21,554 nt of DNA from a virus: positions 1 through 21,554 of the IMG/VR virus record IMGVR_UViG_3300010149_000223; one strand, written 5' to 3'. Shown piece by piece: positions 6,836 to 21,554 of this stretch; positions within the stretch are counted from its first letter, which is position 1; each line of letters begins with the position of its first letter. The notes below the pieces were generated by a model. The model was given only the letters and a program-made list of their open reading frames with translations. It did not search any database and had not been told where the DNA came from. A program made the position numbers and the translations under genes.

Positions 6836-7534
6836 TTATTCCCCCCACGCTATGTCACCGTTAGCATAATAAACTTTAAATGCTCTGTTACTATTATCTA
6901 ATAATGTGTCTTTAATGATTACATTTGCCCCAAAGTAAGCATCACCATCTACAGATAACAAATGAGCTGGATTAGTGTTACCTATACCAATGTTATTATT
7001 AGATGCTATTGTTATATTATTAGACGATCCAATATTGTATGACATTATCTGGATTAAGTCATTATTGGATGCTGCTTGAGTTAGTATTACGTTAGCGCCA
7101 TTTGTAGCTGTATAGTCTTCTGTTTCTTCTAATAGTATTCCGTTTAAAAATACCTGAATAGAGTCTCCAGTTCTATACCCTAAACTATTACCATCATCAT
7201 CATTACCAGCAAAGTTAGTCTGATTATTTGATGATACAAATTCATATAAGGTAAATGCGGAGAACCCAGCTGCACCGGCTTCATTGGTCCAAAAGAGTTG
7301 ACCGTTACCATATGTTTTTAGAATCTGACCAGCACCACCATCTTCAGATGGAAATGCTTGAGCGTTGACTGTTAATGTGGATACGTTTGCACCGACTTCA
7401 AATACACCACCTGCTCCTTTGGAGTACAGGACACCGTCAGCTGTATTAATAGCTAATTCTGCTGTATCTAAATTTGATGTATTAGGCGGAGTGTTACTTA
7501 TCGCACTGCGCTTAATCTTTATGACCGATGCCAT
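6836..7534 (-). CDS. Modular tail-fibre-like structural protein (232 aa)
   Basis: The protein is built of modules seen in marine phage fibres. Residues 1-45 (IKIKRS...LDTAELAINTADGVLYSK) resemble the N-terminal beta-module of the Mtd tropism-determinant type. Residues 60-85 (GGAGQILKTYGNGQLFW) resemble a fibre connector repeat. Residues 120-165 (GDSIQVFLNGILL...DYTATNGANVILTQAASNND) form an 'xVFLNGxxL...DYT' domain. Residues 181-197 carry IGIGNTNPAHLLSVDGD, and the C-terminus is RAFKVYYANGDIAWGE. The C-terminal ~50 residues are paralogous to the following gene. The ATG at 7534 has GAGGAG 6 nt upstream. It is separated from the upstream gene by a 70-nt gap with a probable terminator, so it either uses an unrecognised promoter in that gap or depends on read-through. 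Exact role unknown. Confidence 0.72.
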   Translation of the reverse strand: MASVIKIKRSAISNTPPNTSNLDTAELAINTADGVLYSKGAGGVFEVGANVSTLTVNAQAFPSEDGGAGQILKTYGNGQLFWTNEAGAAGFSAFTLYEFVSSNNQTNFAGNDDDGNSLGYRTGDSIQVFLNGILLEETEDYTATNGANVILTQAASNNDLIQIMSYNIGSSNNITIASNNNIGIGNTNPAHLLSVDGDAYFGANVIIKDTLLDNSNRAFKVYYANGDIAWGE

Positions 7535-7551
7535 TTAGCTCCTCATTCGTT

Positions 7552-7563
7552 GCGTATATACGC
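7552..7563. repeat. 12-bp perfect palindrome GCGTATATACGC
   Basis: This perfect inverted repeat lies just downstream (minus-strand sense) of the 20-bp terminator palindrome and about 18 nt before the start codon at 7534. It could be an operator or a small 5'-UTR hairpin, or chance in an AT-rich gap. I see no convincing -35 element or TATAAATA box with it. Confidence 0.35.
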
Positions 7564-7572
7564 TGAGTTTAA

Positions 7573-7592
7573 AGCCCCTTATATAAGGGGCT
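7573..7592 (-). terminator. Perfect palindrome, probable intrinsic terminator
   Basis: AGCCCCTTATATAAGGGGCT is a perfect 20-bp palindrome, giving an RNA stem of 8 bp (GC-rich base) with an AUAU loop. It lies 13 nt beyond the stop codon of the 446-aa gene. In minus-strand sense it is followed by TTAAAC, so the U-tract is short and termination may be partial. It is the only GC-rich hairpin I see in a gap in this window, which supports a transcription boundary between the two fibre-like genes. Confidence 0.55.
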
Positions 7593-7604
7593 ATATAATA
7601 TTAT

Positions 7605-8945
7605 TTAGTATGTACCACCGTCAATGACTGCATCTAATTGACCTAGCTGTGAAGCTGTATATGTTATCTCTCCACCTGGTTCAGTTGTAATACCTTCTAC
7701 TACAACAAATGCTTTGTTAGCATGTGATGTGTCTCTAAAGAAACCAGAGTACTTATCTGTTCCACCTTCATCATAGTTAGCGTAGAAACCTACGTCTACT
7801 GCATCTGCATCTGTTCCTGTTTGGTTATCAGCTAGTGATAACATGTTGTCATTAATGTTTACTGTAGTACTTTCTACTGTAGTTGTTGTTCCTTGAACTG
7901 TCAAGTCACCTGATAATGTTAAGTTTCTAGCACCAATGTCTGCATCACTAGATATAGTAGCACCACCAATAGCAGCACTTGCAGCATTTACTTCACCAGT
8001 AATATCTACATCACTACCGGCTGTGATTACACCTGTTACTCCTAAAGTAGTACCTACAGTAGCAGCACCAACAATGGCTGCTGATGCGGCATTAACCTCA
8101 CCAGTAATATCTACATCGTTTCCAAATGTACCTACTCCGGTAACACCTAATGTCGTTCCTACAGTAGCTGCGCCTACGATTGCAGCTGATGCGGCATTAA
8201 CCTCTCCAGTAATATCTACATCATTACCGGCTGTGATTACACCTGTTACACCTAAAGTTGTGCCAACAGTAGCTGCGCCTACAATAGCGGCAGAAGCGGC
8301 ATTAACTTCACCAGTAATATCTACATCATTACCGGCTGTGATTACGCCTGTTACACCTAATGTTGTTCCTACAGTAGCAGCACCAACAATTGCAGCAGAA
8401 GCAGCATTTACTTCACCAGCGATATCTGCATCACCGCCTACTACTGTATTGCCTGATGTTTGTACAGATGCTACTGATACAGCATTTGTTAGTTTAACTG
8501 AAATGTGAGATGTGTTAGTACCCGCAACTACAATGTGATCGTCACCAACAATTTTAACTACGTCAGTGTTAGCACCAGTAGCTACAGATAAGTTTGCTGA
8601 TGATACGTTAGCACTTGTACCAAAGTCTACATCTACTGTGTTTGCTGTAATTGTGATTGCACCTGAATCGTTAGATGTAATACCAATACCGTTAGCACCT
8701 GTTAATACTACGTTTGTGTTTGCAGCATTACCAGTACCTGTTAATTTAATTGTAGCACCATCGGTGTCAGTAACTGTACCTATTGCATAAGCGTCACCAG
8801 AAATCTGGATTACATCTGTGCCGTTTGAAGATGAAAATAACTTCTTATCGGCAAGGTTGATTGCTAATTCACCTTGTTCTAGTGCACCATTACTTGGTAC
8901 TTGACCAGCACTGGTATTTCTTTTTAATTTAATAATTGAAGCCAT
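7605..8945 (-). CDS. Repeat-containing tail-fibre-like structural protein (446 aa)
   Basis: Residues 1-42 (IIKLKRNTS...LEQGELAINLADKKLFSS) are the same N-terminal Mtd-like module as in two neighbouring proteins. Residues 43-170 are Thr/Ala/Val-rich beta sequence. Residues 177-316 are four near-perfect 35-residue repeats, with a partial fifth to about residue 331. Residues 345-420 (LTVQGTTTTVESTTVNINDN, then a DAVDVGFYANY...YSGFFRDTS block) form a domain I recognise from marine phage structural proteins. It ends DGGTY. The ATG at 8945 has AGGAG about 8 nt upstream. The composition suggests an elongated trimeric or solenoid fibre shaft with a terminal domain. Particle location is inferred, not shown. 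Confidence 0.75.
   Translation of the reverse strand: MASIIKLKRNTSAGQVPSNGALEQGELAINLADKKLFSSSNGTDVIQISGDAYAIGTVTDTDGATIKLTGTGNAANTNVVLTGANGIGITSNDSGAITITANTVDVDFGTSANVSSANLSVATGANTDVVKIVGDDHIVVAGTNTSHISVKLTNAVSVASVQTSGNTVVGGDADIAGEVNAASAAIVGAATVGTTLGVTGVITAGNDVDITGEVNAASAAIVGAATVGTTLGVTGVITAGNDVDITGEVNAASAAIVGAATVGTTLGVTGVGTFGNDVDITGEVNAASAAIVGAATVGTTLGVTGVITAGSDVDITGEVNAASAAIGGATISSDADIGARNLTLSGDLTVQGTTTTVESTTVNINDNMLSLADNQTGTDADAVDVGFYANYDEGGTDKYSGFFRDTSHANKAFVVVEGITTEPGGEITYTASQLGQLDAVIDGGTY
7998..8417 (-). repeat. Four tandem 105-bp repeats encoding 35-residue units
   Basis: These lie inside the 446-aa fibre gene (residues 177-316). Each unit reads roughly GEVNAASAAIVGAATVGTTL then GVTGVITAGNDVDIT. 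A partial fifth unit continues to about 7953. The protein repeats are almost identical while the codons differ (for example GCAGCA against GCGGCA, and different Gly/Val codons), so the units are not a very recent duplication. Such arrays can change copy number and so alter fibre length. Confidence 0.92.
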
Positions 8946-8959
8946 TTTTTTCTCCTAAT

Positions 8960-9193
8960 CTATTTTATATGATTTTGCAATCTTTCCAAAACGAATGGGC
9001 TTGTTCTACGCTTTGGTTTACTCTTAACTTTATTTATTTTTTCTAGCTCTTTGATACGTAATCTTTGAACTTGAACTTCAGTTGTTAATTGCATATTCTT
9101 TTCTGTTAATTCATTTATAATCTGTTGTTGATTTTGAATGTATTGACTTAACATTACTAATTCATCTGTATCTAAATCTTTTAAATCACTCAC
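8960..9193 (-). CDS. Small coiled-coil protein, function unknown
   Basis: The 77-aa protein is almost wholly helical and charged. Residues 10-56 (ELVMLSQYIQNQQQIINELTEKNMQL...RLRIKELEKI) have a heptad-like spacing of I/L residues, as in a parallel coiled coil. A basic tail follows (KSKPKRRTS). It begins with GTG, and that GTG shares its first base with the TAG stop of the preceding gene (TAGTG). A GGAGGG ribosome site sits inside the last codons of that gene, so translation is coupled. Wedged between structural genes, it could be a fibre trimerisation peptide, assembly chaperone or scaffold. I do not recognise a family. Confidence 0.7.
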   Translation of the reverse strand: MSDLKDLDTDELVMLSQYIQNQQQIINELTEKNMQLTTEVQVQRLRIKELEKINKVKSKPKRRTSPFVLERLQNHIK

Positions 9194-9936
9194 TAGTAAG
9201 ACCCTCCATCTAAATCGTCAAATGTAGGAGTGTCATTGCTTATCTGTAGTACCTGTCCATTAGACCCAGTAGCCTGTGCCATTGTGGATGTATTGCTAGC
9301 AAAGAATACTCCTTTATTTGTGAATGTGTTTAGTCCAGTACCACCATCACTCGTCTTTAGTGGCGATGCTAAACTATCTATTGTTGCATTATATAATGTG
9401 ACATCTTTTATACCTGTTGCAAAAGTATCTCCTTGATACCTTGCTCCTGTTACAAAAATGCTCTTACTATCAGATACTCCTGATGGTAAGTTGGATCCTA
9501 TGAAGTTTAAAGTACCTGATTGATAATCAAAGTACCATTCATCATTGTTTCCTGAACCTGTTTCAAATAACTGTGTTCCATTAGATGCTGGATTTCCTGA
9601 TCCAGCTGTATCTACATATACTTTCAATTGATATGTAGCACCAAACTTTGGTGGTATCCAGTTAGTTGTTCCTGTCTTCCATGTTCTGTTATTTGTTGCT
9701 GTTCCGTCTTCTGTTGTTTCTAACTCTGTATAAATTCTTATTACAGTTGTGTTTGCTGCTGGCATTACAGATGGAATGTTTCCTATATCTGACCATACCT
9801 CATTAGGTTTAATTATTAAGTCTGATACAATAGCTTCATTGGGAGCTTTCTTATTTGCATTAGTATCTGTCTTAGCTTTACTAAATCCTACCTTCTTCCA
9901 CAGTAAGTCTACTTTTTGGGTATCACTTATAGCCAT
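9193..9936 (-). CDS. Virion structural protein, tail-fibre-like (247 aa)
   Basis: The N-terminus MAISDTQKVDLLWKKVGFSK then AKTDTNANKKAPNEA is a pattern I associate with structural proteins of marine T4-like phages. Residues 95-165 (WIPPKFGATYQLKVYVD...NDEWYFDYQSGTLNF) read as a beta-sandwich-like domain. Residues 190-247 contain a fibre motif (LKTSDGGTGLNTFTNKGVFF) and a QATGSNGQVLQISND segment, ending LDGGSY. The ATG at 9936 overlaps the preceding stop (TAATG) and uses a GGAGGT ribosome site within that gene's last codons. It probably connects or decorates fibres or the baseplate. The family memory is mine and was not checked; the exact role is unknown. Confidence 0.75.
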   Translation of the reverse strand: MAISDTQKVDLLWKKVGFSKAKTDTNANKKAPNEAIVSDLIIKPNEVWSDIGNIPSVMPAANTTVIRIYTELETTEDGTATNNRTWKTGTTNWIPPKFGATYQLKVYVDTAGSGNPASNGTQLFETGSGNNDEWYFDYQSGTLNFIGSNLPSGVSDSKSIFVTGARYQGDTFATGIKDVTLYNATIDSLASPLKTSDGGTGLNTFTNKGVFFASNTSTMAQATGSNGQVLQISNDTPTFDDLDGGSY

Positions 9937-12900
9937 TATTCGACCTCCAACTGTGATAAGTAGTCACCATCATCTAACTTTATTCCTACTAATATTTGAT
10001 TGTTAAATGAGTCAGTAGCATTCTGATCACCTAGTGTTAATGTAAATCCTGCATTACTATATGTAGTGCCATCTATAATTCTATCACCTGATGTGAATGC
10101 ACAACCATCAGAACCATTACCACCATTGCCTGTATCTGCTCCAGGTGTTCCTGCACCACCGTATGTAGTACCTGCATCTAACCAACCGTTTAATCCTGAT
10201 GCGTCATCTATAGCTGTGTTAGGAGCTGCAATAAAGAAGCCTGATACTTTACCAGTTAGCTTGACTGTAAAGTTTGCCATTGTAGTTCTTTTGAATGCAA
10301 ATCTAAAATACTGTGTTCCACTTCTACCTGTAGCTAAGTCTGGTCCTACTGGTAAGTATCCACTAGATAGGTTTGTATCGTAGTGTTGTAAATTTCCATA
10401 TCTAACTACTGCTTCATCCGTACCTGCAATAGTTACCGCACCTGTCCAATTGTTAGATGCGTAATAATCTTGGCCACTATTGAATGTTGGTGTTGAACCA
10501 GACCATCCAGTTACAATTCTTAAACCATCAGTATTGAACCCAGCACCTAAATCATCTGACACTGGTATACCTGTTTCATTTACTCCTGACGATGTTCCAT
10601 TGTAAACTGCAACCTTTGTATTTGAGAATGCTACTGTGCTACCAGTACCATTAACATTTTCCATATTCATGTTAAAACCTTCTACTCTTCTACCTCCACC
10701 ATTAACATTTATTTGGAAAGTATCAATGTTTACATTTGCACCCATACCTGTATTTGCTTTTGGTTTACCGCTAGATAATAATCCAGAAGGCAATATTGTA
10801 TAGTCTTTATATTGTGTACTAAATGATGATCCACTATCACCTTCAATATTAGTGCCACTTGTAATGTTAAATATGTTGCTATCATTCTTATAGCATTGAC
10901 CTGCAACGTTGCTTACCAATGCTCCTGCTACGTTTAGTGTAGCATCATTTGTATAGTATGGAATTCCAGATACATATGCTAGTGTTCCAGCAGAGTTCTG
11001 TGTCAACGTTGTTCCACTAAAATTAATTACTGGTGTACCAGTTAAATTATCTTTTACAAATTGTAATACTGAGGTGTTTCCTGTTTCACTGTGATTGAGC
11101 TTGTATGTGTGAACACCATTAGCTAAACTAGACTTAGATACTCTAGATCTAAAGCCAGAATATAATCCTGGAGCATATATTCTACTTGTACTACCTACAC
11201 TAGATCCTGTGGCATTGAAGTTATAGAAATCTAATTCATCAACGACTACTAATGAATTATTAGTACCAGTGTCATCTCCTGCTGTAAAATTAATTGTTCC
11301 ATCTACTGATCCATCAACTATAGCAGATAAGCTACCTGTGCTAGCATCATATACTACCTGGGAGTTTGCTTCTCCTGTGGTCTCAATTGAACTTGATGTT
11401 GTATATCTTGTAATGGAATCCCCTTCTCCGAGCGTCGATTCTGTTGAATGATCGATATGCTCTGCTGCGAGTCTTGGTGATGATCCAACTGATGATGAGG
11501 TAAGACTGAATGACTTTCCAGACAAACCTTCTGGAGCTCCAATTGATGTGTTGAAGATCTTAATCTGTTTAGATGTTGTGTTAGGCAATGCACTTGGACT
11601 CGCTGTTGAGTGAGTATTGATTGTGAATGTAATCGTGTTCCTTCCTGTGCCTGAACCTGATGAATATGAATGTGCGAGTCTTGCTCCTTGTGTTCCACCA
11701 TCGACGCTTGTGTTTGACACGCTGTCAGTAGAACTGTCACCCCAATTGACAAAGAAAGATGCAACGACATCATTTGCATTTGTTGTTTCGTTTTCAAGAT
11801 AAATTGTTTCACCTGTATTAGCCTCTGTAATTTCTGATCCGCTTGATGCAACATTATATAGATCAAAGTCTGATATTGGATCTGCTGTAAACAATGTTAT
11901 TAAATCTGTTACTGTTTGAGTTGCTGAATTGCCTTCACCAAGTGCTCCAGTGTTCTTTGCTGTTACTGATATATCAAAAGGGGAGTTGGTATTATCAGTG
12001 TAAGTATGCGATGGCGTCGAGCTTGTTACATTGCTGTTAGAACTACCATCTCCCCAATCAATATCAAAAGCGTTAGCATTTCCTACTACGTTTAGTGTGA
12101 GTGTTGCAACTAATGGTGCACCACCTGTGTTTCCTGATGTGCATGTTACCACGACATCTCTTACGTATGTTTTTTGATGTATGTTAAACATTACTTCGTT
12201 CATAGAATCTATTGCATTAGCAACACTGGTTGATTCTGTTATTGATGTTACTGCACCTTCTATGTTTCCTGATCCTGAACCATTGGCATATATTCCATCT
12301 GTTGGTAATCCAACAGTTACTGCTGAACCTACTGTGTTAATTGCACCTACTAAATTATCTACGTACAGTTTAGTGGTAGCATCTGTATCACTTGATGGTG
12401 CTGATCCTAATGTTATTTGATTTGCAAATACTGTCTTATAGTTTGATGATGATGTTCCTAATGTAAATGTATCGTCTGTTGTAGGTACTATATTATTGTT
12501 TACTGATGCACCTAATGATATTACATCACCACCATCACCAAGTGATATATTATCACCTCTTAATACTATATCGCCATTTACTGTAAGAGTGTTAGCTATA
12601 TTAACATCTACAAAATCACCCGTATTAGCTGTGACTATGTTTGCAGTTACATTACCTGTAGCTGATAAGTTGTCACCAGATTGTGTTCCTATAGTTAATG
12701 TGTTAACTGTTAATACATCTATTCCACCAGTTGAGTTGGCTACAATAGCTGCACTGTTTGTTAATGTACCAGGTGTAACATTGAGCAATGCTACATCACT
12801 TCCACCTGCTATCTTTATTACTTCATTGGAATCAGAATTAGCACCAATAAATAGATTGTTTGAAGCAAATGAATAAGCTAGTTCACCGTTAGCCAATACC

Positions 12901-12953
12901 GTAGGCGTGGCATTAACGTGACTTCTTTTTATTTGAATAGTTGAGTCTGGCAC
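9936..12953 (-). CDS. Large virion surface protein with PKD-like domains (1005 aa)
   Basis: This is a large beta-rich structural protein. Residues 1-47 (IQIKRSHVNATPTVLANGEL, then AYSFASNNLFIG) are the Mtd-like N-terminal module shared with neighbours. Residues 75-200 are a fibre-like Val/Thr/Asn region with the ATTKLYVDNLV motif at 192-202. Residues 265-350 form a PKD-like Ig domain with DWGDGSS (299-305) and PSHTY (314-318). A second copy at 375-465 has VNWGDSST (402-409) and LAHSYSSG (426-433). The C-terminal half is Ser/Gly/Thr-rich without a motif I recognise. PKD-like domains on phage particles are thought to help bind carbohydrate or host surfaces. It starts with GTG at 12953, overlapping the TAG of the upstream gene, with GGAGGT upstream. 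No protease or lyase motif is seen. Confidence 0.78.
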   Translation of the reverse strand: MPDSTIQIKRSHVNATPTVLANGELAYSFASNNLFIGANSDSNEVIKIAGGSDVALLNVTPGTLTNSAAIVANSTGGIDVLTVNTLTIGTQSGDNLSATGNVTANIVTANTGDFVDVNIANTLTVNGDIVLRGDNISLGDGGDVISLGASVNNNIVPTTDDTFTLGTSSSNYKTVFANQITLGSAPSSDTDATTKLYVDNLVGAINTVGSAVTVGLPTDGIYANGSGSGNIEGAVTSITESTSVANAIDSMNEVMFNIHQKTYVRDVVVTCTSGNTGGAPLVATLTLNVVGNANAFDIDWGDGSSNSNVTSSTPSHTYTDNTNSPFDISVTAKNTGALGEGNSATQTVTDLITLFTADPISDFDLYNVASSGSEITEANTGETIYLENETTNANDVVASFFVNWGDSSTDSVSNTSVDGGTQGARLAHSYSSGSGTGRNTITFTINTHSTASPSALPNTTSKQIKIFNTSIGAPEGLSGKSFSLTSSSVGSSPRLAAEHIDHSTESTLGEGDSITRYTTSSSIETTGEANSQVVYDASTGSLSAIVDGSVDGTINFTAGDDTGTNNSLVVVDELDFYNFNATGSSVGSTSRIYAPGLYSGFRSRVSKSSLANGVHTYKLNHSETGNTSVLQFVKDNLTGTPVINFSGTTLTQNSAGTLAYVSGIPYYTNDATLNVAGALVSNVAGQCYKNDSNIFNITSGTNIEGDSGSSFSTQYKDYTILPSGLLSSGKPKANTGMGANVNIDTFQINVNGGGRRVEGFNMNMENVNGTGSTVAFSNTKVAVYNGTSSGVNETGIPVSDDLGAGFNTDGLRIVTGWSGSTPTFNSGQDYYASNNWTGAVTIAGTDEAVVRYGNLQHYDTNLSSGYLPVGPDLATGRSGTQYFRFAFKRTTMANFTVKLTGKVSGFFIAAPNTAIDDASGLNGWLDAGTTYGGAGTPGADTGNGGNGSDGCAFTSGDRIIDGTTYSNAGFTLTLGDQNATDSFNNQILVGIKLDDGDYLSQLEVE

Positions 12954-13207
12954 TAGAAAGTACCTCCATCAATAGGTAATGCTTTTAAAACGTATTCATC
13001 GTTTGTAGCATCATATACTAATGTACCTCCATCAACTTCTGTTGTATCATTTACATCAAGTAGATCAGCTATTTTTGTTTTACCGCCGCCTAGTCCACCT
13101 GATGATAATGTTACCGTGTTAGTACTTGTAGCGCCTTGTATGCCACCACTTCCGCCTATGCTCACTTTTATATTTGATGAAGTTTGATTGAATAGAGTGT
13201 TAGCCAT
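12953..13207 (-). CDS. Small Gly-rich fibre-like structural protein (84 aa)
   Basis: The protein has a Gly/Ser/Thr-rich first half (IGGSGGIQG, LSSGGLGGGKT) and a second half, IADLLDVNDTTEVDGGTLVY followed by DATNDEYVLK, that matches the 'L-x-DVxDT...dGxxLvYDaxxxxwv' linker common in phage tail fibres. It ends IDGGTF. The ATG at 13207 overlaps the stop of the previous gene (TAATG) and has AGAGGT about 10 nt upstream. Likely a small virion surface component or adaptor for the large PKD-like protein encoded next. The fibre-linker match is the only functional clue. Confidence 0.68.
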   Translation of the reverse strand: MANTLFNQTSSNIKVSIGGSGGIQGATSTNTVTLSSGGLGGGKTKIADLLDVNDTTEVDGGTLVYDATNDEYVLKALPIDGGTF

Positions 13208-13536
13208 TATTTGGTTACCTCTGGTGTAACTGTGACTATGCCTTCTAATATTCTAGATTTAACATTAGACACATCTGTCAGTTCTACATCATATACATAT
13301 CTTCCAGCACTCATACTGGATGTCACTGCGTTATTGAGAGTAAGTGTTAGGGTGCCTGTATTGTTTGCTAAAGAGGCTGAAAAGTTTGTTGCGTTTGATG
13401 ATGAGTGTGTTTTTCTTATTTGTGAGGCTGCAGACATCCCAGTCAAATCTAACTGTAATCCGCTATTATCTGTTAAGTTAACTGACGTTGTAAAGTCAGT
13501 GCCTTGGTCTATTAGAATATTAACTCTAGTTGCCAT
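13207..13536 (-). CDS. Small beta-rich virion protein, baseplate/fibre N-domain-like (109 aa)
   Basis: The sequence MATRVNILIDQGTDFTTSVN then LTDNSGLQLDLTGMSAASQI, and later SAGRYVYDVELTDVSNVKSR with ILEGIVTVTPEVT, reads as a compact Ig-like or BppU-N-like beta domain. I recall similar small proteins in T4-like cyanophages as structural. It is the first gene of the fibre gene run. A perfect late promoter (13562..13569) and a strong GTAGGAG ribosome site precede it. A 9-bp stem (13538..13567) could mask that ribosome site in transcripts from further upstream. The family is not named with certainty. Confidence 0.7.
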   Translation of the reverse strand: MATRVNILIDQGTDFTTSVNLTDNSGLQLDLTGMSAASQIRKTHSSSNATNFSASLANNTGTLTLTLNNAVTSSMSAGRYVYDVELTDVSNVKSRILEGIVTVTPEVTK

Positions 13537-13537
13537 C

Positions 13538-13567
13538 TAAATACTCCTACATATGCACGAGTATTTA
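13538..13567 (-). promoter_or_regulatory. RNA stem-loop that would mask a ribosome binding site in read-through transcripts
   Basis: In minus-strand RNA, UAAAUACUC (13559..13567) pairs perfectly with GAGUAUUUA (13538..13546) across a 12-nt loop. The 3' arm contains the GAG of the AGGAG ribosome site for the gene starting at 13536. The 5' arm overlaps the TATAAATA late promoter, so a transcript begun at that promoter would lack most of the arm and leave the site free. In T4, lysozyme gene e and other late genes use this arrangement to block translation of early read-through RNA. Confidence 0.6.
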
Positions 13568-13569
13568 TA
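13562..13569 (-). promoter_or_regulatory. T4-type late promoter for the fibre gene run
   Basis: This is a perfect TATAAATA on the minus strand, in the 46-nt gap between the accessory cassette and the first fibre gene. Its spacing to the ATG at 13536 leaves room for a short leader carrying the GTAGGAG ribosome site. It probably drives 13207..13536 and the coupled genes after it, as far as the hairpin at 7573. Confidence 0.78.
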
Positions 13570-13582
13570 ACAACCGGTAGAT

Positions 13583-13918
13583 CTACTTGTTGATTTTAAC
13601 TATGTTCCTGGTATGAATTATTCTATTGCTTTTACATTTGTATTCAAGTTGATCTTTATTATATCCTTCTAAGCAATCTAATGCTCTCTTTGTGTTTCCA
13701 TACATTATAAACCATAATGTATTTTGATCAACTAGTTTTAATTCTGTTACAGCTTGTTGGCCTTTGGCTTGAGCTTTTCTTTTTAAGAAGTGATTGTTAA
13801 ATAATACTTCTAGACCAATAAGATCGCTATAAAACTCATTAGGATTTTGATATGCGTTCCAGTAATTTCTATATTCTTCTACAAGGGCGAATTTGAAATC
13901 CTTTCTAAACTCTCTCAT
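13583..13918 (-). CDS. Hypothetical protein (111 aa), last gene of accessory cassette
   Basis: I do not recognise this protein. It is charged and probably helical, with MREFRKDFKFALVEEYRNYW then NAYQNPNEFY at the start and a basic C-terminus (KCKSNRIIHTRNIVKINK). Two features stand out: the NTLWFIMYGNTKRALDCLEG segment at residues 66-85, and many Lys/Arg residues. The ATG overlaps the stop of the oxygenase-like gene by 4 nt (ATGA), so it is translationally coupled to that gene and probably works in the same process. No signal peptide or membrane segment is seen. Confidence 0.7.
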   Translation of the reverse strand: MREFRKDFKFALVEEYRNYWNAYQNPNEFYSDLIGLEVLFNNHFLKRKAQAKGQQAVTELKLVDQNTLWFIMYGNTKRALDCLEGYNKDQLEYKCKSNRIIHTRNIVKINK

Positions 13919-14640
13919 TTTTGTTCTTCTGGGGTGAGCTCATCAACAATGTCTGCCCAAATGTTTTCATCAAATACTACCCATCCTAAAGTAATTCTTG
14001 GACCGCCATATGCTGCATGCCATAATAATTTATCATGCTCTTCTTTCTTACCATAGTAGCCTAGCTTACAATGCCATCCTACAGGATCATCTAAATGAAC
14101 TAAATGTTTATCAGGGTCTGCCAATAATGTGCCTTTAGGTTGTCCTGTCGGATCAATGTTTCTCCAGTATCCTTTACCAGTAGGATTCCATGTAAACAAA
14201 CAATTAAATCCTGGTACATTCCAATTAGTATGCCATGCAATGTATCCATCTTCTGGATAAAACATTTTTAGTGCACAAAATTTATATCCAATATATGAAC
14301 CAAGCTCATCATCAAGTTCTCTAGATTTCTCTATATATTTCTTTATCCATAATTTTTCATCAGGTGTAAATCTATGCCCCTCATGTTGTAATGTTTTAGC
14401 TAATGTTGGCTCATTCATATCGTACCCATAACTATCTGGTGGATATCCATCATGAGTATCTACAGGCATACTTCTTAAACATTCTAACGAGGTTGAATAT
14501 TCAGACCTATTTTCTTTTTTAAATTTGCCTTTGGTTTTCCAGTTAGGTAGATTTACGTCAGGTCTATTTTCTGACATAAATTTACTGTACTTATCTAAGA
14601 TCTGTAAAAGATCCGTATTGAGAGTCAATATCTGCTTCAT
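13915..14640 (-). CDS. Probable 2OG-Fe(II) oxygenase-like protein
   Basis: The 241-aa protein has a core that looks like a double-stranded beta-helix oxygenase. Residues 117-141 (IGYKFCALKMFYPEDGYIAW, HTNWN) supply a candidate metal-binding H137-x-N139. H190 (VGWHCK) or H208 (LLWHAAYGGPR) could be the distal His, and R215 (GPRITLGWVV) the 2-oxoglutarate-binding Arg, in the typical final 'H...G.RxtLgw' strand. The usual Asp of HxD is Asn here, so activity is not certain. Such genes are common in marine T4-like phages, with mostly unknown substrates. The ATG at 14640 has AAGGA about 8 nt upstream and overlaps the glycosyltransferase end by 50 nt. An internal Met at 14574 lacks a ribosome site. 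Alternatives are a cupin-like fold or an inactive relative. Confidence 0.55.
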   Translation of the reverse strand: MKQILTLNTDLLQILDKYSKFMSENRPDVNLPNWKTKGKFKKENRSEYSTSLECLRSMPVDTHDGYPPDSYGYDMNEPTLAKTLQHEGHRFTPDEKLWIKKYIEKSRELDDELGSYIGYKFCALKMFYPEDGYIAWHTNWNVPGFNCLFTWNPTGKGYWRNIDPTGQPKGTLLADPDKHLVHLDDPVGWHCKLGYYGKKEEHDKLLWHAAYGGPRITLGWVVFDENIWADIVDELTPEEQK

Positions 14641-15409
14641 ATGTATATCCTTTTTTTACTGCAGCCGGATCAATGGTGTAATGTAATACAGCCTTCTTAT
14701 GACCTGGTCTTAGTTCGGTTTCTTTGTATCCAGTAACAAAATTATATTTTGCATCATTAGGTAATCTAATTAGATCTAATTTTTCGGCAAGCTCTGGATT
14801 CTCATAGAGCGCTCTCCAAAATGCAAATGTGTCCCAGTACTCCAATCGTTCTGGAAAGGGTTTGGTATTCTTATCTACAGTATGTATCTTATACCACTTT
14901 AACCATTGATGCCATAGCTCTTGCGTGCGCTCGTTCTTATTCCAAGCAAACATTCCACAATGCCATCTAAACTTATGAGCCTTACCTTGCTTATATAATT
15001 CTATATGCTCTGGATCATAATGATTAAGTTCTCTGCCAGGAATTCCTGGACCTTCTTGCTCATCGTGACTGAAGTATACGACTTTAGCATTGTATGGTCT
15101 ATTCTCTGACATTACTACATCATGATTTCCAAGATGATCAAACACTTCTTCCAGCTCTGGTGAAATGACAAATGTATCTACATCTAAGTATACAGTTTGG
15201 TCAAATGGTGTTTGCGGTAAAGCCCATAACTTTGTTCTACAGTGTACGGGTACTGGTGTTACAATATGATCAAATAAATGTCTATGTCTATCCTCTAGCC
15301 ATTCCTCATGTGTATAGAATGCTAGCTTAGCATCAGGTATCTCATCTTTTAAACTCTCTGCAGCCATTATCGCGGCTTCATAAAACGGCTTTGATAATGT
15401 GGCTACCAT
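14591..15409 (-). CDS. Glycosyltransferase, GT-A fold, GT8-like
   Basis: This protein transfers a sugar from a nucleotide sugar; donor and acceptor are unknown. It opens with MVATLSKPFYEAAIMAAESL, a typical GT8-like first strand and helix. It has KLWAL and then the metal-binding DxD in VYLDVDTFVISPELEEVF (the two Asp at about residues 76 and 78 of the 272-aa form). Later come HCGMFAWNKNERTQELWHQW, in the place of the 'NSGVm..n' acceptor loop, and WDTFAFWRAL. The frame runs up to a GTG at 15427, but AGAGG at 15417..15421 best serves the ATG pair at 15412 and 15409, so I chose 15409. It lies in a cassette with an oxygenase-like gene and next to a giant Tyr/Lys-rich repeat gene. Targets could be virion fibres, host surface sugars or DNA. 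Confidence 0.8.
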   Translation of the reverse strand: MVATLSKPFYEAAIMAAESLKDEIPDAKLAFYTHEEWLEDRHRHLFDHIVTPVPVHCRTKLWALPQTPFDQTVYLDVDTFVISPELEEVFDHLGNHDVVMSENRPYNAKVVYFSHDEQEGPGIPGRELNHYDPEHIELYKQGKAHKFRWHCGMFAWNKNERTQELWHQWLKWYKIHTVDKNTKPFPERLEYWDTFAFWRALYENPELAEKLDLIRLPNDAKYNFVTGYKETELRPGHKKAVLHYTIDPAAVKKGYTYEADIDSQYGSFTDLR

Positions 15410-15419
15410 CATATAGCCT

Positions 15420-15956
15420 CTATTCACTTTTGTTGCTGTCCTCGATTAAAATAGCACAACCGTAAGCAAGTGCTTCAAAGTATGTTGTAGATTTTCTTAA
15501 GTTTCTTTTTAGTAATTTGTTCTCACTATTTTTAACAACTGACATGTCCATGAATTGGCTTTTGACTTCCCATAATTTGGATCTGATCTCTTCTCTGTCT
15601 GCTGTTGACTTAGCCTCCTCCATAGCATAATTTCTAGCCTTTTGAATCTGAACTTCTCTGTTTGTATTTGTTATCAGTTCTTCTTCAGTAAACTGATTAA
15701 CAATATCTCTGTATAATGGATGATTTGTATCAGCAGGAATTTCACTCTCAACAGTCGCCATGCCATCTGGTCTAAGCAAGATGCATGATAGTTTTGTTTT
15801 ATTGTTGTCAATGTAATGTGGGTACTGTATGATTGGTAACCCTGGATCAATTTCAAAATCCTTTACCCTAAGACCCTTAGGAGGTTCTTGTTTGGTTTGG
15901 TTTGTAGGTGGGCTAACTCCTTCAGGAAGTTTAGCATATCGTTGTTCTTCAGTCAT
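15420..15956 (-). CDS. Hypothetical protein (178 aa), first gene of accessory cassette
   Basis: I do not recognise a family. Residues 1-35 are polar and Pro-rich (PEGVSPPTNQTKQEPPKGLR). Residues 36-95 look like a small alpha/beta domain (LPIIQYPHYIDNNKTKLSCI, LLRPDGMATVESEIP). Residues 96-160 form a long charged helix, possibly a coiled coil. A short hydrophobic end follows (YFEALAYGCAILIEDSNKSE). No signal peptide or clear membrane anchor is present. It starts with ATG at 15956, with a modest GAGAG ribosome site, about 26 nt below a strong sigma70-like promoter with an embedded late promoter. Its position at the head of the cassette suggests expression both early and late. Confidence 0.72.
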   Translation of the reverse strand: MTEEQRYAKLPEGVSPPTNQTKQEPPKGLRVKDFEIDPGLPIIQYPHYIDNNKTKLSCILLRPDGMATVESEIPADTNHPLYRDIVNQFTEEELITNTNREVQIQKARNYAMEEAKSTADREEIRSKLWEVKSQFMDMSVVKNSENKLLKRNLRKSTTYFEALAYGCAILIEDSNKSE

Positions 15957-15981
15957 AATTAATCTCTCAAATTTAGTTCAT

Positions 15982-16010
15982 ATTATACACAATAGTATTT
16001 ATAAGGTCAA
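15982..16010 (-). promoter_or_regulatory. Sigma70-type promoter for the accessory cassette
   Basis: On the minus strand TTGACC (16005..16010) is followed after exactly 17 bp by TATAAT (15982..15987). This is one mismatch from the full bacterial consensus at optimal spacing. It directs transcription into the 178-aa, glycosyltransferase, oxygenase-like and 111-aa genes and would be read by unmodified host RNA polymerase early in infection. A late promoter lies in its spacer. Confidence 0.8.
15996..16003 (-). promoter_or_regulatory. T4-type late promoter inside the sigma70 spacer
   Basis: TATAAATA on the minus strand, perfect match, sits between the -35 and -10 elements of the sigma70-type promoter and 40 nt from the start codon at 15956. 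The two promoters overlap, so early and late polymerases would compete for or succeed each other on the same site. Confidence 0.72.
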
Positions 16011-16012
16011 CA

Positions 16013-16029
16013 GTTAAGCTATCCTTAAC
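16013..16029 (-). other. Short inverted repeat over the stop codon of the giant gene
   Basis: GTTAAG and CTTAAC form a perfect 6-bp stem with a 5-nt loop across the stop codon of the giant repeat gene. No U-tract follows in minus-strand sense, so it is a poor intrinsic terminator. It may be incidental or a weak 3' stabiliser. It is the only structured element I see between the giant gene and the cassette promoter. Confidence 0.3.
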
Positions 16030-19000
16030 CATAATTTAATTGTTGAAACTGTTTCATAAGTTCCTGTGACAGTTAGTCCTGACCACAACTTATCATAAAC
16101 GCCTGTGTAAGTTTTAACATAGTTACCAGTATACACGCCTGTGTATTCTTTCTGGTATGCTTTTTCAAATTGGCCAACATAAGTAGCTATGTACTGTTTA
16201 TTGAATGATCCCTCAAACGATCCTTCATACTCTTTAGTATAGTTGCCCAAGAATACTTTTCCATATGCACCTATGTAAGTGTGCTCGTATATGCCTGAGT
16301 ATTCTTTTGTAAAGTTGCTTGAGTAATATCCAGTAAAAGTTCCTTCGTATTCTTTAGAGTATATTTTTAGATATGTGCCAACATATTCTCTTTGGAAGGA
16401 TCCTTCAAATTGTCCTTCATATAATCCAAGATAGGTTTTAGTATACAGACCAGTGTATACACCAGACCATATTTTTTCAAATTGTCCTGTGTATGTTCCT
16501 TCATATCCTTTTGTAAATGCACCCTCAAATTGTTTATCAAACGCACCTTCATATTGTTTGCTGAATTGTCTTGAATATTGTCCAACGTATGTCTTGGTAT
16601 ATTGTCCAATGAAGGTTCCTTCATATTCCTTTTCATAGTTTCCAACATACAGTTTATCATATATGCCAATGTAGGTTTTATCAAACGTACCCTCATATTC
16701 TTTACTATACAGTTTTAGATAAGTTCCTGAATATCCTCTTTGGAATGTTCCTTCAAATGTACCTTCATATAATCCTGTATATGCTTTAGTGTAAACGCCT
16801 ACGTAAGTTCCTGTATATGTTTTATCATAATACCCTTCAAATGTTCCTTCGTATTGTTTATTAAATACACCTTCAAACTGCTTATCAAATGAGCCTTCAT
16901 ATTGCTTTGTATATATTCCTACATAAGTTCCCTGATACAATTTAGTAAATTGTTTGTCAAAAGATCCCTGGTATTGCTTTGTATATATTCCTAAGAAAGT
17001 ACCTTCATACTGCTTATCGTAATATCCTTCAAAGGTTCCTTCATATTCTTTGGAATAGATTTTTAGATATGTACCGACATATTCTCTTTGGAAGGATCCT
17101 TCAAACGAACCTTCATATTGTCCTAAGTAAGTTTTTGTAAACTGTCTGCTATATTGTCCAGTATATGATTTTGTATAGTTGCCTACAAATAAACCTTCAT
17201 ACCCTCTTGTGAATGCTCCTTCGAATTGCTTATCAAATGAACCTTCGTATTGCTTTGTATATATTCCTACATACGTTTTAGTGTAGTTTCCAGTATATTG
17301 CTTTGTAAATGAACCTTCGTATTGTTTATTATATTGACCAGTATAGGTTTTTACATATGCACCAATATATGTTTTGTCAAATGCTCCTTCATACAGTCCA
17401 GTGTATACACCTTGATAATCTTGAGCACCTGAATATGCTCCTATATAGTATCCAGTAAACACACCTTCGTATGCTTTTTCATATGCTTTATTAAAGTAGC
17501 CTTCATAATATCCAGTATAGTCACCCTCATATGTTCTTGATCCAGACCATAGTTTTGCATATGCTCTTTGATAGTTAACACTTACATATGTCTTATTGAA
17601 TGCACCTTCGAATGATCCAGTATATTGACCATCGTATGTTCTAGTACCTTCAAATTGACCTGCATATGCTTTGATGTATGCTACGTTATATAACTTTTGA
17701 TAGTTTCTTTGATATTGTCCAGTATATGTTCTTGATCCAGCGTATGTTCCTTCATACGTTTTATTGAATACACCCTCATACTGCTTATTGAATGCACCCT
17801 CGAAGGTTCCTTCATATAAGCCAACATATTGTTTAGCAAATTGCTTATCGTAATGTTTAGTATAGATTCCTACATATGTCTTAGTGTATGCTTTCTGATA
17901 TGTTTTCTGATAAGCTCTAGTGTATGAGCCTACATAATTTTTATTGTACGCACCCTCATAAGCTCTCTCATATGCCTTTGCATAATGATTTGTATAGTTA
18001 CCAGTATATGATTTCTGATAGTTCTTTACAAATATACCAGCATACTGTCTTTCGTAATTTCTGTTAAATGCGCCTTCATATACTGCTGTATAGATTCTAT
18101 TGTATTGTCCAATATATTGTTTTGTAAACAACCAAGTATATGTTGCTACATATTGTTTTGAGAATACTCCTTCATAGTTAGCTGAGTATTGTCTTGTGTA
18201 GAATCCTTCATATTCGCCAGCATAGTTTCTTCCATATTGTCCACTATATGCTGCACCATATTGTTTTGCATATGTTCCTGAAAATGATCCTTCGTATTGT
18301 TTAGCAAAGAATCCAGTGAAAGTTCCTTCATACTGTTTGTTGAATGCACCTTCAAATTGTTTTGAGAAGTATCCTTCGTACACTCCTTCATATTGTCTAT
18401 TATATGTGCCAGCAAAAGTTCCAGAGTATTGTCTACCATATAGTCCTTCAAACAATCCTGTGTATATTCTGGCATAGCTTGCAGTGTATCGTTTTGTATA
18501 GTTTCTTGCAAATGATCTTTCGTAGTTAGCACCATACTGACCCGTATATGTCTTAGTGTAGTTTCTAGTATATCCCTTTGTATAGTTGCCAGTGTACTGT
18601 CTGGTATAGTTTCCTGTATACTGCTTAGCATAGTTTCTTGTGTAGTCTTTATTATAATTACCAGCATATAGCTTGGTGTAGTTGCCAGTATATGCCTTTT
18701 GATAGTTTCTGGTGTAGTGTTTAGTATAGTTTCCAGTATACTGTCTTGCATAGTTTCCTGTATACTGCTTCTGATAATTTCTATTATAGTAACCAGTAAA
18801 TGTTCCTGTAAACAGTTTTAAATAATTGCCAGCATATGCTCTTTGCCAGTTGGTGTTGTAATAACCTGTATACGCTCTATCGTAGTTACCCGAATATGCT
18901 TTTGTAAAGTTAGTACCGTATGTACCAGAATATGTCTTAGTATAGTTGCCTGAATATGCCCTTGTGTAGTTACCGGAATAGGCTTTAGTAAAGTTTCTTC

Positions 19001-21554
19001 CATATGTTCCAGAGTATTGTTTTGTATAGTTTCCAGCATAGGCTTTAGTGTAGTTGCCTGCATATGCTTTTGTATAGTTTTTTCCATACGTTCCACTATA
19101 TGCTCTATCATAGTTCCCTGAATATGCCCTTGTGTAGTTACCTGTATACTGTCTATTATAGTTTGTTGCATAGTAACCCGTGTATGCTCTATCATAGTTT
19201 TTAGTATAGTTACCAGCATAGTCCCTAGTATAATTGGTAGCATAGTAACCCGTGTATGCTCTATCATAGTTTTTAGTATAGTTACCTGCATACGCTTTCT
19301 GGTAGTTGGTAGCATAGTATCCTGTAAACACTTTAGCATACTGTTTAGTATAGTTGCCTGCATATGCTCTGGTATAGCTTCCTGCAAATGCTCTGGTATA
19401 GTTACCTGCATATGCTCTGGTATAGCTTCCTGAATATGTAGGGGCATAGTTGGCAATGAAAAATGCTATCTTTTCAATTGGTGTTAATGGACCTTCCCAT
19501 AACCCTGGAGCTTGTTGTGGGGGCCCAGGGCTGCCTGGCTGAGTACCAATATAAAGACCACCACCAAGCTCATACGATATACTTTGCCACGTCTTAGTAT
19601 ATCCACCAGCAGTAAAGGTTCCTTGTGAAACATAGTTTATTGCACCAACCCATGCGGACGGTCCAACGTAACTTAATGTACCAACATATGTGGCTGCACC
19701 TGTATAAGCTGGTCCTACATAATATAAAGGTGAAAATTTTCCTGCACGTGCATAGCTTGCTTGATATGTTGTTGATCCACCTTGGAAGTATCCAAGGGAT
19801 GTATATGTTCCTGTACCTGCAAAATATGCTGTACCTCCATAGTACTGGTCACTTAAATAGTTGCCCGAAGGTGAATAGAATCCTGTAAATGAATTATTAT
19901 AATACCCTGTAAACGTACCGTTATAGTATCCCGTAAACGAACTATTGTAGTAGCCTGTATATTGTCTACTATAATGTCTTGTATAGTTACCTGCATATGC
20001 TCTTTGCCAGTTGGTAGCATAGTAACCAGTGTACTGTCTATTATATCTCTTAGTATAGTTACCAGCATATGCTCTTTGATAACTAGTAGCATAGTAACCA
20101 GTGTACTGTCTATTATATCTCTTAGTATAGTTACCAGCATATGCTCTTTGATAATTGGTAGCATATTGGCCAGAGTATGTAGTGTTGTAGGATCCAGTAT
20201 ATCTTTTTGTATAGTTACCTGTATACTGCTTTAAGTAATTCTTGTTATAGTACCCTGTCCATTGTCTATTATAATAACCTGTATATTGTCTTGAATAGTT
20301 ACCAGTATATTGTTTTAAATAGTTCCTGTTATATGATCCAGTAAATGTAGTATTATAAGATCCAGTATATACTCTGTTGTATTGTCCTGTATACTGTTTT
20401 AAATAGTTTCTGTTATATGAACCAGTGTATCTTTTTGTATAGTTACCAGCATATGCTTTAGTAAAGTTTCTTGTATAGTATCCTGTAAACGTACCTGTAA
20501 ATTCTCTAGAATAGTTTCCAGCATATGCTTTTGTATAGTTCTTAGAATATTGACCTGAGTATATTCTTTCGTAAACACCAGACCATACTTTGGCATATTG
20601 TTTTGCATAGTTTCTTGTATAGCTTCCACTCCAAAGTCTATCATATAGACCCTGCCATTGCTTTACATAGTTTTTTGAATAGTTCTTAGTATATTGACCA
20701 GAATATAGTCTGTCATAGACACCTGTATATACTCTCTGGTATAACTTCTGATAGCTTCTATTGTATGTTCCAGTCCACAGTCTATCAAACTGACCTATGT
20801 ATGCTTTTTGATATGCTCTATCATAATTCTTCTGATAGTTCTTTTGAAAGTTTCTAGCATATTGTCCAGCATATTGTTTTAGGAACGATCTTGTATATTG
20901 TCCTGTATATGCTTTATTCCAAAGTCTTGCATATTGTCCAGCATAGTTTTTAGTATACACTCCAATATATACTTTTGTAAATAATCTTGAATAAGCGCCT
21001 GAGTAATGTCTAGTCCAAAGACTACTATATACTCCAGTGTACTGACTGATCCATGCTTTGTTGTAGATTCCAGTATATTGCTTTAACCAATTTTTAGAAT
21101 ATATACCTGCAAAGTTTTTCTGATATTGTTTTACATAAACGCCAGCATATTGTTTAAGATATGCCTTCTGAAAGTTTCTAACATAATTAGTAGCAAAAAC
21201 TCCTTGATATGTCTTTGTCCAAATTCTATCATACTGACCTACATAAGTTTTAGTATATGCTTTTGTATAAGCACCTTCATATGCTTTCTGATAGTTTCTT
21301 ACAAATGCGCCTTCATAATGTTTACCATATGCTTTTTGATATAGTTTAACATATGCACCTTGATAAGTTTTTGTATATGATCCAACAAATTGTTTGTTAT
21401 AGTTGGTTACATAATCTCTAGTATAGTTAGAGTTATAAGATCCCTCATAGTTTCCGTTAAGAAAATATCCTACATAGAATTCTGTCGTGCTAGCAAATGT
21501 TCCCTCAAACTGTCTGCTATATTGTCCAATATAAGTCTTGGTGTATGTACCGGT
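16014..21554 (-). CDS. Giant aromatic tetrapeptide-repeat protein, 5' end beyond window
   Basis: The reading frame is open from the right edge of the window to the TAA at 16014. That is 1846 sense codons with no real start visible; the GTG at 20960 is just a Val codon inside the repeats. Almost the whole chain is a tandem tetrapeptide [Y/F/W]-x-[G/K/R]-x, for example YTGN-YTRA-YSGN-YDRA. A non-tetrapeptide segment at 19437..19877 and a few register breaks near 17411..17750 and 21445..21505 interrupt it. The C-terminal ~20 residues (VTGTYETVSTIKLWLRIA) leave the repeat. Tyr alone may be near a fifth of all residues. Within a beta-strand, the aromatic and the G/K/R would face one side, giving tyrosine ladders. 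I know no named family. Its place among tail and fibre genes suggests a giant fibre, filament or adhesin. Location in the virion is inferred only from context. Confidence 0.85.
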   Translation of the reverse strand, partial: TGTYTKTYIGQYSRQFEGTFASTTEFYVGYFLNGNYEGSYNSNYTRDYVTNYNKQFVGSYTKTYQGAYVKLYQKAYGKHYEGAFVRNYQKAYEGAYTKAYTKTYVGQYDRIWTKTYQGVFATNYVRNFQKAYLKQYAGVYVKQYQKNFAGIYSKNWLKQYTGIYNKAWISQYTGVYSSLWTRHYSGAYSRLFTKVYIGVYTKNYAGQYARLWNKAYTGQYTRSFLKQYAGQYARNFQKNYQKNYDRAYQKAYIGQFDRLWTGTYNRSYQKLYQRVYTGVYDRLYSGQYTKNYSKNYVKQWQGLYDRLWSGSYTRNYAKQYAKVWSGVYERIYSGQYSKNYTKAYAGNYSREFTGTFTGYYTRNFTKAYAGNYTKRYTGSYNRNYLKQYTGQYNRVYTGSYNTTFTGSYNRNYLKQYTGNYSRQYTGYYNRQWTGYYNKNYLKQYTGNYTKRYTGSYNTTYSGQYATNYQRAYAGNYTKRYNRQYTGYYATSYQRAYAGNYTKRYNRQYTGYYATNWQRAYAGNYTRHYSRQYTGYYNSSFTGYYNGTFTGYYNNSFTGFYSPSGNYLSDQYYGGTAYFAGTGTYTSLGYFQGGSTTYQASYARAGKFSPLYYVGPAYTGAATYVGTLSYVGPSAWVGAINYVSQGTFTAGGYTKTWQSISYELGGGLYIGTQPGSPGPPQQAPGLWEGPLTPIEKIAFFIANYAPTYSGSYTRAYAGNYTRAFAGSYTRAYAGNYTKQYAKVFTGYYATNYQKAYAGNYTKNYDRAYTGYYATNYTRDYAGNYTKNYDRAYTGYYATNYNRQYTGNYTRAYSGNYDRAYSGTYGKNYTKAYAGNYTKAYAGNYTKQYSGTYGRNFTKAYSGNYTRAYSGNYTKTYSGTYGTNFTKAYSGNYDRAYTGYYNTNWQRAYAGNYLKLFTGTFTGYYNRNYQKQYTGNYARQYTGNYTKHYTRNYQKAYTGNYTKLYAGNYNKDYTRNYAKQYTGNYTRQYTGNYTKGYTRNYTKTYTGQYGANYERSFARNYTKRYTASYARIYTGLFEGLYGRQYSGTFAGTYNRQYEGVYEGYFSKQFEGAFNKQYEGTFTGFFAKQYEGSFSGTYAKQYGAAYSGQYGRNYAGEYEGFYTRQYSANYEGVFSKQYVATYTWLFTKQYIGQYNRIYTAVYEGAFNRNYERQYAGIFVKNYQKSYTGNYTNHYAKAYERAYEGAYNKNYVGSYTRAYQKTYQKAYTKTYVGIYTKHYDKQFAKQYVGLYEGTFEGAFNKQYEGVFNKTYEGTYAGSRTYTGQYQRNYQKLYNVAYIKAYAGQFEGTRTYDGQYTGSFEGAFNKTYVSVNYQRAYAKLWSGSRTYEGDYTGYYEGYFNKAYEKAYEGVFTGYYIGAYSGAQDYQGVYTGLYEGAFDKTYIGAYVKTYTGQYNKQYEGSFTKQYTGNYTKTYVGIYTKQYEGSFDKQFEGAFTRGYEGLFVGNYTKSYTGQYSRQFTKTYLGQYEGSFEGSFQREYVGTYLKIYSKEYEGTFEGYYDKQYEGTFLGIYTKQYQGSFDKQFTKLYQGTYVGIYTKQYEGSFDKQFEGVFNKQYEGTFEGYYDKTYTGTYVGVYTKAYTGLYEGTFEGTFQRGYSGTYLKLYSKEYEGTFDKTYIGIYDKLYVGNYEKEYEGTFIGQYTKTYVGQYSRQFSKQYEGAFDKQFEGAFTKGYEGTYTGQFEKIWSGVYTGLYTKTYLGLYEGQFEGSFQREYVGTYLKIYSKEYEGTFTGYYSSNFTKEYSGIYEHTYIGAYGKVFLGNYTKEYEGSFEGSFNKQYIATYVGQFEKAYQKEYTGVYTGNYVKTYTGVYDKLWSGLTVTGTYETVSTIKLWLRIA
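16078..19436 (-). repeat. C-terminal tetrapeptide repeat array (12-bp period)
   Basis: About 280 tandem [YFW]-x-[GKR]-x units. From 19436 to about 18450 the units are mainly YTGN/YAGN alternating with YTK/YTR types, giving an eight-residue super-period. From about 18450 to 16130 units with Glu before Gly (YEGT, FEGA, FEGS) become dominant and alternate with NK/DK/TK units. Six-residue or five-residue spacings break the register at 17411..17750 (GSRTY, GTRTY, GAQDY, VSVNY). Confidence 0.93.
19437..19877 (-). other. Non-tetrapeptide segment inside the giant repeat protein
   Basis: About 147 residues in frame that do not keep the four-residue register. The first part has loosely spaced Y-x-G motifs (YYGGTAYFAGTGTY, YVGPAYTGAATYVG, YVGPSAWVGAINYV). 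Then comes a Gly/Pro-rich linker (GSPGPPQQAPGLWEGP) and a hydrophobic helix-like stretch (LTPIEKIAFFIANYAPTY) before the repeats resume. It could be a folded domain, hinge or cleavage region between two fibre arms. No known domain is recognised. Confidence 0.8.
19878..21554 (-). repeat. N-terminal tetrapeptide repeat array (12-bp period), open at window end
   Basis: About 135 further [YFW]-x-[GKR]-x units continuing out of the window. Positions 21554 to about 21290 include Glu-Gly units (FEGT, YEGS, YEGA). The rest, down to 19878, is nearly free of acidic residues and strongly basic, with Trp at some aromatic positions (RLW, KNW, KAW, RQW). Near 21445..21505 the register is disturbed (FASTTEFYVGYFLNGNYEGS). 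Confidence 0.9.

Follow-up and report, generated by a model that had tools for sequence, protein, structure and literature searches.

A giant aromatic-tetrad protein with mirror-symmetric arms in a T4-like phage: a candidate antiparallel hairpin fibre

The virus record IMGVR_UViG_3300010149_000223 of IMG/VR was analysed over its complete public length of 21,554 bp, hereafter called the window. It encodes terminase subunits, a tail sheath, a sheath stabiliser, head closure and adaptor proteins, fibre-like proteins and a tail-fibre assembly protein, a gene set that marks a T4-like phage. The terminase shares 57% identity with the enzymes of Synechococcus phages (S-SM2 and S-SKS1, for example) and of single-cell marine viruses. 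Our subject is the giant gene at the end of the window, a minus-strand frame at 16014-21554 that contains no stop in 1,846 residues and is truncated by the contig end. We present evidence that the two halves of its product are complementary along a mirror register, and consider what kind of fibre this would make.

The giant protein and its family

A preliminary description of the window had proposed an open frame of at least 1846 residues, with an aromatic-x-[G/K/R]-x pattern over 5.5 kb and about 400 such tetrads. Frame and pattern hold: 415 tetrads carry an aromatic residue at both i and i+4 (2,000 shuffles gave a mean of 120 and a maximum of 152). Position 1 of the tetrad is Y (321), F (81) or W (13), and 92% of the residues at position 3 are G (180), K (129) or R (71). 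The array is not uniform, however, being interrupted by a non-repeat segment of ~135 residues and a block of phase inserts, and followed by a separate 19-residue tail. At the DNA level, tandem repeats in the gene recur every 8 to 40 residues, always a multiple of four. The apparent start at 20960 had rightly been called false, as full-length relatives extend upstream with more repeat and then an N-terminal domain of ~250 residues. Both these close relatives, of 2,645 amino acids (aa) at locus L008 and 2,436 aa at L009, are complete; an alignment with L009 shows that ~818 N-terminal residues are missing from the window protein, giving it a full length of ~2,660. The parts of the protein within the window are as follows, with residues numbered in the open frame.

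19866..21554, minus strand: N-side arm of the putative hairpin, residues 1-563; a 132-unit run and a short run, with the 5' part beyond the contig end
19461..19865, minus strand: central non-repeat Gly/Pro-rich segment, residues 564-698; the interruption at the symmetry centre and proposed distal tip or turn
16074..19460, minus strand: C-side putative return arm, residues 699-1827; a 144-unit inner run, a break block and a 112-unit outer run
17418..17732, minus strand: break block B2 in the return arm, residues 1275-1379; 2-residue R-T/Q-D phase inserts and NYQRAYAKLWSGSRT
16017..16073, minus strand: conserved 19-residue C-terminal tail TVTGTYETVSTIKLWLRIA, with the family hallmark ..LW[VLI]R[TVI]A

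The central segment, and the mirror symmetry of the array about it, had been overlooked in the preliminary description. The segment aligns poorly among relatives, whereas the arms align, and a mirror-placed counterpart of B2, block B1, is present in full-length relatives.

The repeat had been thought to lack a named family, and families in Pfam, PHROG and the PDB indeed do not account for it. Against Pfam profiles it gave only a sub-threshold score for Prion_octapep (19.8 against a cut-off of 32). A match of the window to PHROG 430 (baseplate hub lysozyme) was rejected as compositional, with no scanned relative matching that family. No description of such a protein was found in the open-licence literature.

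Homologues with the same period do exist. Further giants, complete or partial, were reached by way of the N-terminal domain, and a profile of that domain yielded 163 loci in IMG/VR; 80 of the loci were kept, and the members examined among these, of at least 314 aa, are built as N-terminal domain, aromatic tetrads and tail. The N-terminal domain, chain order and gene neighbourhood are conserved across relatives. An assembly artefact is very unlikely, because intact relatives occur in independent metagenomes. Although frequent in IMG/VR, the family is missing from Pfam and PHROGs and from almost all genomes of cultured phages. The complete Kyanoviridae genome of Phage C48C1 (OQ984149) encodes a divergent homologue of 3,347 aa (WJE88074, L007:8854-18897), in which aromatic tetrads are mixed with TRTR-x-S units and several globular inserts occur, one of them exactly duplicated. 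A scan of bacterial and archaeal genomes for the pattern returned short chance repeats only. Matches in Enterococcus phage Riverwalk and Vibrio phage F23s1 lay outside or antisense to annotated genes and were taken as chance.

In those loci of close relatives that extend far enough, the gene upstream encodes the same repeat with a C-terminal GP38-type adhesin domain (PF05268; E values of 9e-13 and 4e-12 in the two tested). PF05268 had no match in the window, P0001 or P0002, and matched only the neighbouring gene (P0004, P0005).

Three further observations concern gene arrangement. At L018:10001-18018 the giant gene lies in two overlapping frames (a stop follows 10001-11962, and the other frame spans 12118-18018), the split being a frameshift or an assembly error. 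L021 carries side-by-side paralogues (7467-9971 and 9986-12610) with the same N-terminal domain and C-terminal tail, which suggests a two-fibre set. At L048:3969-13496, L035:1-5091 and L045:3593-7120, a repeat protein of a separate lineage is encoded upstream of the N-domain gene; it reaches 3,176 aa (L048), has an adhesin-like Gly-rich C-terminal domain and a recurring VFYGGFASGSQTTN motif, and a mirror register looked for in these proteins was not found.

Mirror register and pairing code

The arms of the window protein pair at i+j=1265 (0-based), with a centre at about residue 634 and a z of 8.6, computed after local composition was removed. Shuffle maxima were 4.3 and 5.2 (of 300) for the window and 6.0 for L008. 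Mirror registers were likewise found in L008 (z of 13.0), L015 (10.8), L014 (9.8), L024 (9.5), L052 (7.8) and L039 (5.1), with the peak falling at the protein's own central segment in both L052 and the short, divergent L039. The giant of L012 gave a weaker signal with several near-equivalent registers.

Glycine at position 3 illustrates the exactness of the register. Among 137 mirror pairs at this position in the window, 46 are Gly-Gly, 77 non-Gly and only 14 mixed (odds ratio 88, p=8e-22), and a shift of the register by one unit takes the correlation from +0.79 to -0.27 or -0.50. In L008, the Gly mirror (sum 2873, 0-based) is kept throughout the 1,145-residue arm (odds ratio 142, p=1e-50). 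No common simple period of Gly was found along an arm.

These results bear on the two structures that the preliminary description had offered. A beta-solenoid or tyrosine ladder formed by coiling of a single chain would suit the strict period of four, with aromatic and G/K/R residues sharing one face. Such a fold should show local or parallel coupling from one turn to the next; instead, one antiparallel register spans the whole protein, no parallel register gave a comparable signal in the inner runs, and the equal arm lengths described below are left unexplained. We therefore regard a solenoid as very unlikely. The second proposal, an unfolded and sticky filament, or a chain of low complexity with no fixed structure, would agree with the low complexity and the very low AlphaFold2 confidence. 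Residue-exact complementarity nonetheless joins sites up to ~2,400 residues apart, which requires selection for a fixed contact, and this makes an unfolded chain hard to credit. Neither proposal predicts register-exact mirror co-variation between the halves, which suggests instead that the chain folds back on itself as a long antiparallel hairpin.

When the arms are aligned at the mirror register, residues at position 2 on one side lie opposite position 4 on the other, and the 2/4 pairs D-R, E-Q, Q-N, A-Y, V-S, L-N, N-T and D-T are enriched and recur in the transposed combination. At position 3, Gly-Lys is avoided and Lys-Thr enriched. The log-odds of position 2 x position 4 correlate with those of the transposed position 4 x position 2 (r=0.78, p=4e-15; untransposed control 0.05). 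Related proteins are not independent of one another, but this test is independent of relatedness because different residues within the same proteins are compared, and the symmetry on transposition is also seen inside single proteins. When learnt from other members using positions 2 and 4 only, the code ranks the window register first of 919, also when transposed; without position 3 and again from other members, it ranks the L008 register first of 1,196. The GP38-fused neighbour genes have a mirror symmetry of their own, and in L018 and L012 their mirror register is recovered by the same code. A pairing model based on charge alone was rejected: like charges outnumber unlike ones at offset 0, owing to the Lys-Lys pairs at position 3, and thus the code is not plain electrostatics.

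The symmetry extends to the architecture of the chain. In the giants, the order of segments is N-terminal domain, outer run, break block, long inner run and central non-repeat segment, then inner run, break block, outer run and tail. Outer runs count 112/112 units per side in L008 and L009, 54/54 in L012, L013 and L015, and 54/52 in L014. Measured from the centre, the arms of the giants are 1145/1137, 1046/1037, 875/899, 875/871, 1240/1247 and 1380/1387 residues long (r=0.998), and near-equal arms, from 21/20 up to 1377/1387, were found in most measured family members. Of 40 complete, non-redundant members, 27 have their main interruption within 5% of the centre, and the median offset among all 40 is 1%; automatic assignment of the tip fails where several interruptions exist, for example in C48C1 and L021. 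The smallest members resemble plain hairpins turning at the centre, as in YTGSYSGAYTGNYTGAYTRFF-AGSIGG-FFSGTYTGFYTGSYSGSYSG, and the turns of minimal members read AGSIGG(F), FIGG or GGARYG.

Could duplication of repeats have produced this symmetry without any structural cause? A direct duplication of 29 units (116 residues) does lie in both outer arms of L008 (residues 252-699 and 2179-2626), L009 and the window protein. Duplication cannot reverse residue order, though, and the 2/4 code is symmetric on transposition only. Mirror identity is barely above background (0.32 vs 0.28), so the arms are complementary and not copies, and we give this explanation almost no weight. The difference between 112 and 54 units equals two 29-unit modules per arm, which suggests matched lengthening of both arms.

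A candidate hairpin fibre and its place in the virion

Mutual information between the arms is maximal at offset 0. A second coupling lies at offset -2 for positions 2/4, face B (0.43 and 0.26 bit), and at offset +2 for positions 1/3, face A. In a twisted antiparallel ladder, the neighbours of hydrogen-bonded sites lie on the opposite diagonal from those of non-hydrogen-bonded sites. The -2/+2 couplings reproduce these diagonals, and therefore indicate a continuous antiparallel beta ladder. The beta conformation with aromatic and G/K/R residues on one face, put forward in the preliminary description, gains support, as does a structural fibre of a T4-like phage, given the terminase, sheath and neck genes.

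The tetrad array, the mirror register with its pairing code, the equal arms and the GP38 fusion in the neighbouring gene of relatives are properties of the sequences themselves. From them we infer a three-dimensional hairpin, its length, a receptor-binding tip and a location in the virion, and consider it likely that the giant protein is a phage fibre, on the tail or elsewhere in the virion, whose single chain folds into one giant antiparallel beta-hairpin. In such a fibre, the N-terminal domain of ~250 residues would probably provide the attachment. An outgoing arm of tetrads, ~870-1,380 residues in giant members, would lead to the Gly/Pro-rich central segment as distal tip, most likely for host contact. 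The chain would then run back the same length, each residue pairing with its partner in the outgoing arm, and the conserved 19-residue tail would end beside the base, so that N-terminal domain and tail may form the anchor together. Side-chain complementarity would set the register, with aromatic rows on aromatic rows, Gly on Gly and Lys on Thr or Lys, to which positions 2 and 4 would add register pairs such as D-R, E-Q, N-Q, A-Y and V-S. By analogy with other phage fibres such as the T4 gp37 needle, the hairpins probably trimerise into a thin fibre. Contact with the host would be made by its tip or, on the fibre of the paralogous neighbour gene, by the GP38 adhesin. An arm would span ~290-455 nm at 0.33 nm per residue if extended; tilt or supercoiling would shorten it.

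Several points weigh against this interpretation. Covariation alone fits a hairpin within one chain, but equally a domain-swapped trimer or a straight antiparallel homodimer. AlphaFold2 models of the tip region with arms and of the N-terminal domain reached predicted local distance difference test (pLDDT) scores of 29.5 and 48.4, both too weak to use. A single mirror register was sought in the Phage C48C1 protein, L048 and L035, and none was found. In the GP38-fused neighbour, the adhesin follows the return arm and so lies at the same end as the N-terminus, leaving the host-facing end of that fibre ambiguous.

The homodimer deserves particular attention: two extended chains would lie head to tail in a rod of double length, with the central segment mid-rod and no fold-back, and would give identical constant i+j covariation. 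Fold-back is favoured because minimal members carry short Gly turns at their centre (AGSIGG, FIGG, GGARYG). A straight rod, moreover, needs no variable central non-repeat segment, fibres attach by one end, and T4 gp37 folds back (PMC6957217). We judge a homodimer unlikely. Somewhat less improbable is that the hairpin is real but belongs to a neck whisker, a head decoration or a secreted matrix protein, as the locus is flanked by baseplate or fibre-like genes on one side and head-tail joining genes on the other. Genes for fibre-like proteins and for tail-fibre assembly are nearby, however, and since the neighbouring paralogue of relatives bears a GP38 tail-fibre adhesin, a tail fibre is the most likely identity of the giant protein.

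The genes downstream of the giant gene and the fibre-related genes of the window are listed below.

15420..15956, minus strand: downstream neighbour of 178 aa, function unassigned; syntenic in L008, L009, L012, L014 and C48C1
14591..15427, minus strand: GT8-like glycosyltransferase with a YLDVD (DxD) motif and PF01501 matches
13915..14640, minus strand: conserved neighbour of 241 aa; an HxN..H..R pattern likened to 2OG-Fe(II) oxygenases by eye only
13207..13536, minus strand: L-shaped tail fibre assembly-like protein; PHROG 3304 (E value 1e-21) and PHROG 1084
7605..8945, minus strand: tail-fibre-like protein of 446 aa; PHROG 19966 (E value 4e-7)

The GT8-like and 241-aa genes follow the giant gene in all compared loci, Phage C48C1 included. 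PF01501 was matched by four of the six GT8-like members (best E value 3.4e-6; window copy 0.01), whilst Pfam and PDB searches gave no meaningful match for the 241-aa protein. The GT8 family includes glycogenin, which glycosylates its own Tyr, and the two neighbours might modify the fibre. Inside the 446-aa fibre-like gene lies a 105-base tandem repeat of 4.6 copies (7955-8433).

No library or paper searched contains the repeat, the proposed strand length or the pairing code. On balance we favour a fibre that is one uninterrupted ladder, with strands exceeding 1,000 residues and a length of several hundred nanometres, its register set by a code analogous in principle to base pairing, and grown from a 20-residue hairpin by matched arm lengthening. 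To our knowledge, no longer beta strands are known than the arms of the giant members, if this reading is right (T4 stem arms have 50 residues). It would then be a natural example of two strands whose alignment over more than 1,000 residues is specified by residue pairs. How so long a hairpin avoids slippage as it folds, how its two arms grow in step (54/54 and 112/112 outer runs) and how marine T4-like phages reach distant hosts are the questions that it would raise. The minimal members of 314 residues represent a tractable crystal target, and the pairing code a source of rules for designed beta fibres.

Comparison with known systems

The structural protein SWTG_00067 of cyanophage S-RIM2 (L033:7414-13152) has a short period-four V/L-T-G-N repeat, resembling the giant protein in period, but has no aromatics and no homologous N-terminal domain. 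The tblastn match that led to it was rejected as a relative because of this non-aromatic VTGN repeat. The resemblance is likely convergent or due to chance, and possibly reflects a related structural principle without aromatics. The Phage C48C1 protein WJE88074, in contrast, shares the homologous N-terminal domain, aromatic tetrads, the C-terminal tail and three syntenic downstream genes; it differs in that only about half of its steps are aromatic, in its several globular inserts, and in that its mirror register was not found. The GP38 adhesin family (PF05268) is fused to the same repeat in the adjacent paralogue of relatives, whereas the giant protein itself is without GP38.

The closest parallel in design is the distal needle of T4 gp37, the structure of which we take to be PDB 2XGF. 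A PDB sequence search of the giant protein revealed neither homology to gp37 nor its collar domain, and the N-terminal domain matched no PDB entry. T4 gp37 has HxH iron sites, whilst the window protein and five relatives have no HxH motif; conversely, the aromatic tetrapeptide of the giant family has no known counterpart in T4 gp37. Given the lack of HxH motifs and of detectable homology, we regard the giant protein as gp37-like in its working, without assigning it to the gp37 family. The stem arms of the T4 needle are 50 residues long, compared with up to 1,387 in the giant family. The fold-back topology thus has a small precedent, and the heavier the weight placed on it, the less novel the giant fibre becomes.

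In T4 gp37, stem segments 882-931 and 960-1009 flank the tip (932-959), stem and tip together are inserted in a collar of residues 811-881 and 1010-1026, and Gly921 of the stem packs on Phe970 of another subunit (PMC6957217). The out-tip-back topology, the equal arms and the central tip are shared with the giant family, for which the topology derives from the mirror covariation and equal arms and not from a structure. The receptor-binding tip of T4 gp37 is a central insertion between stem arms, as we propose for the giant fibre.

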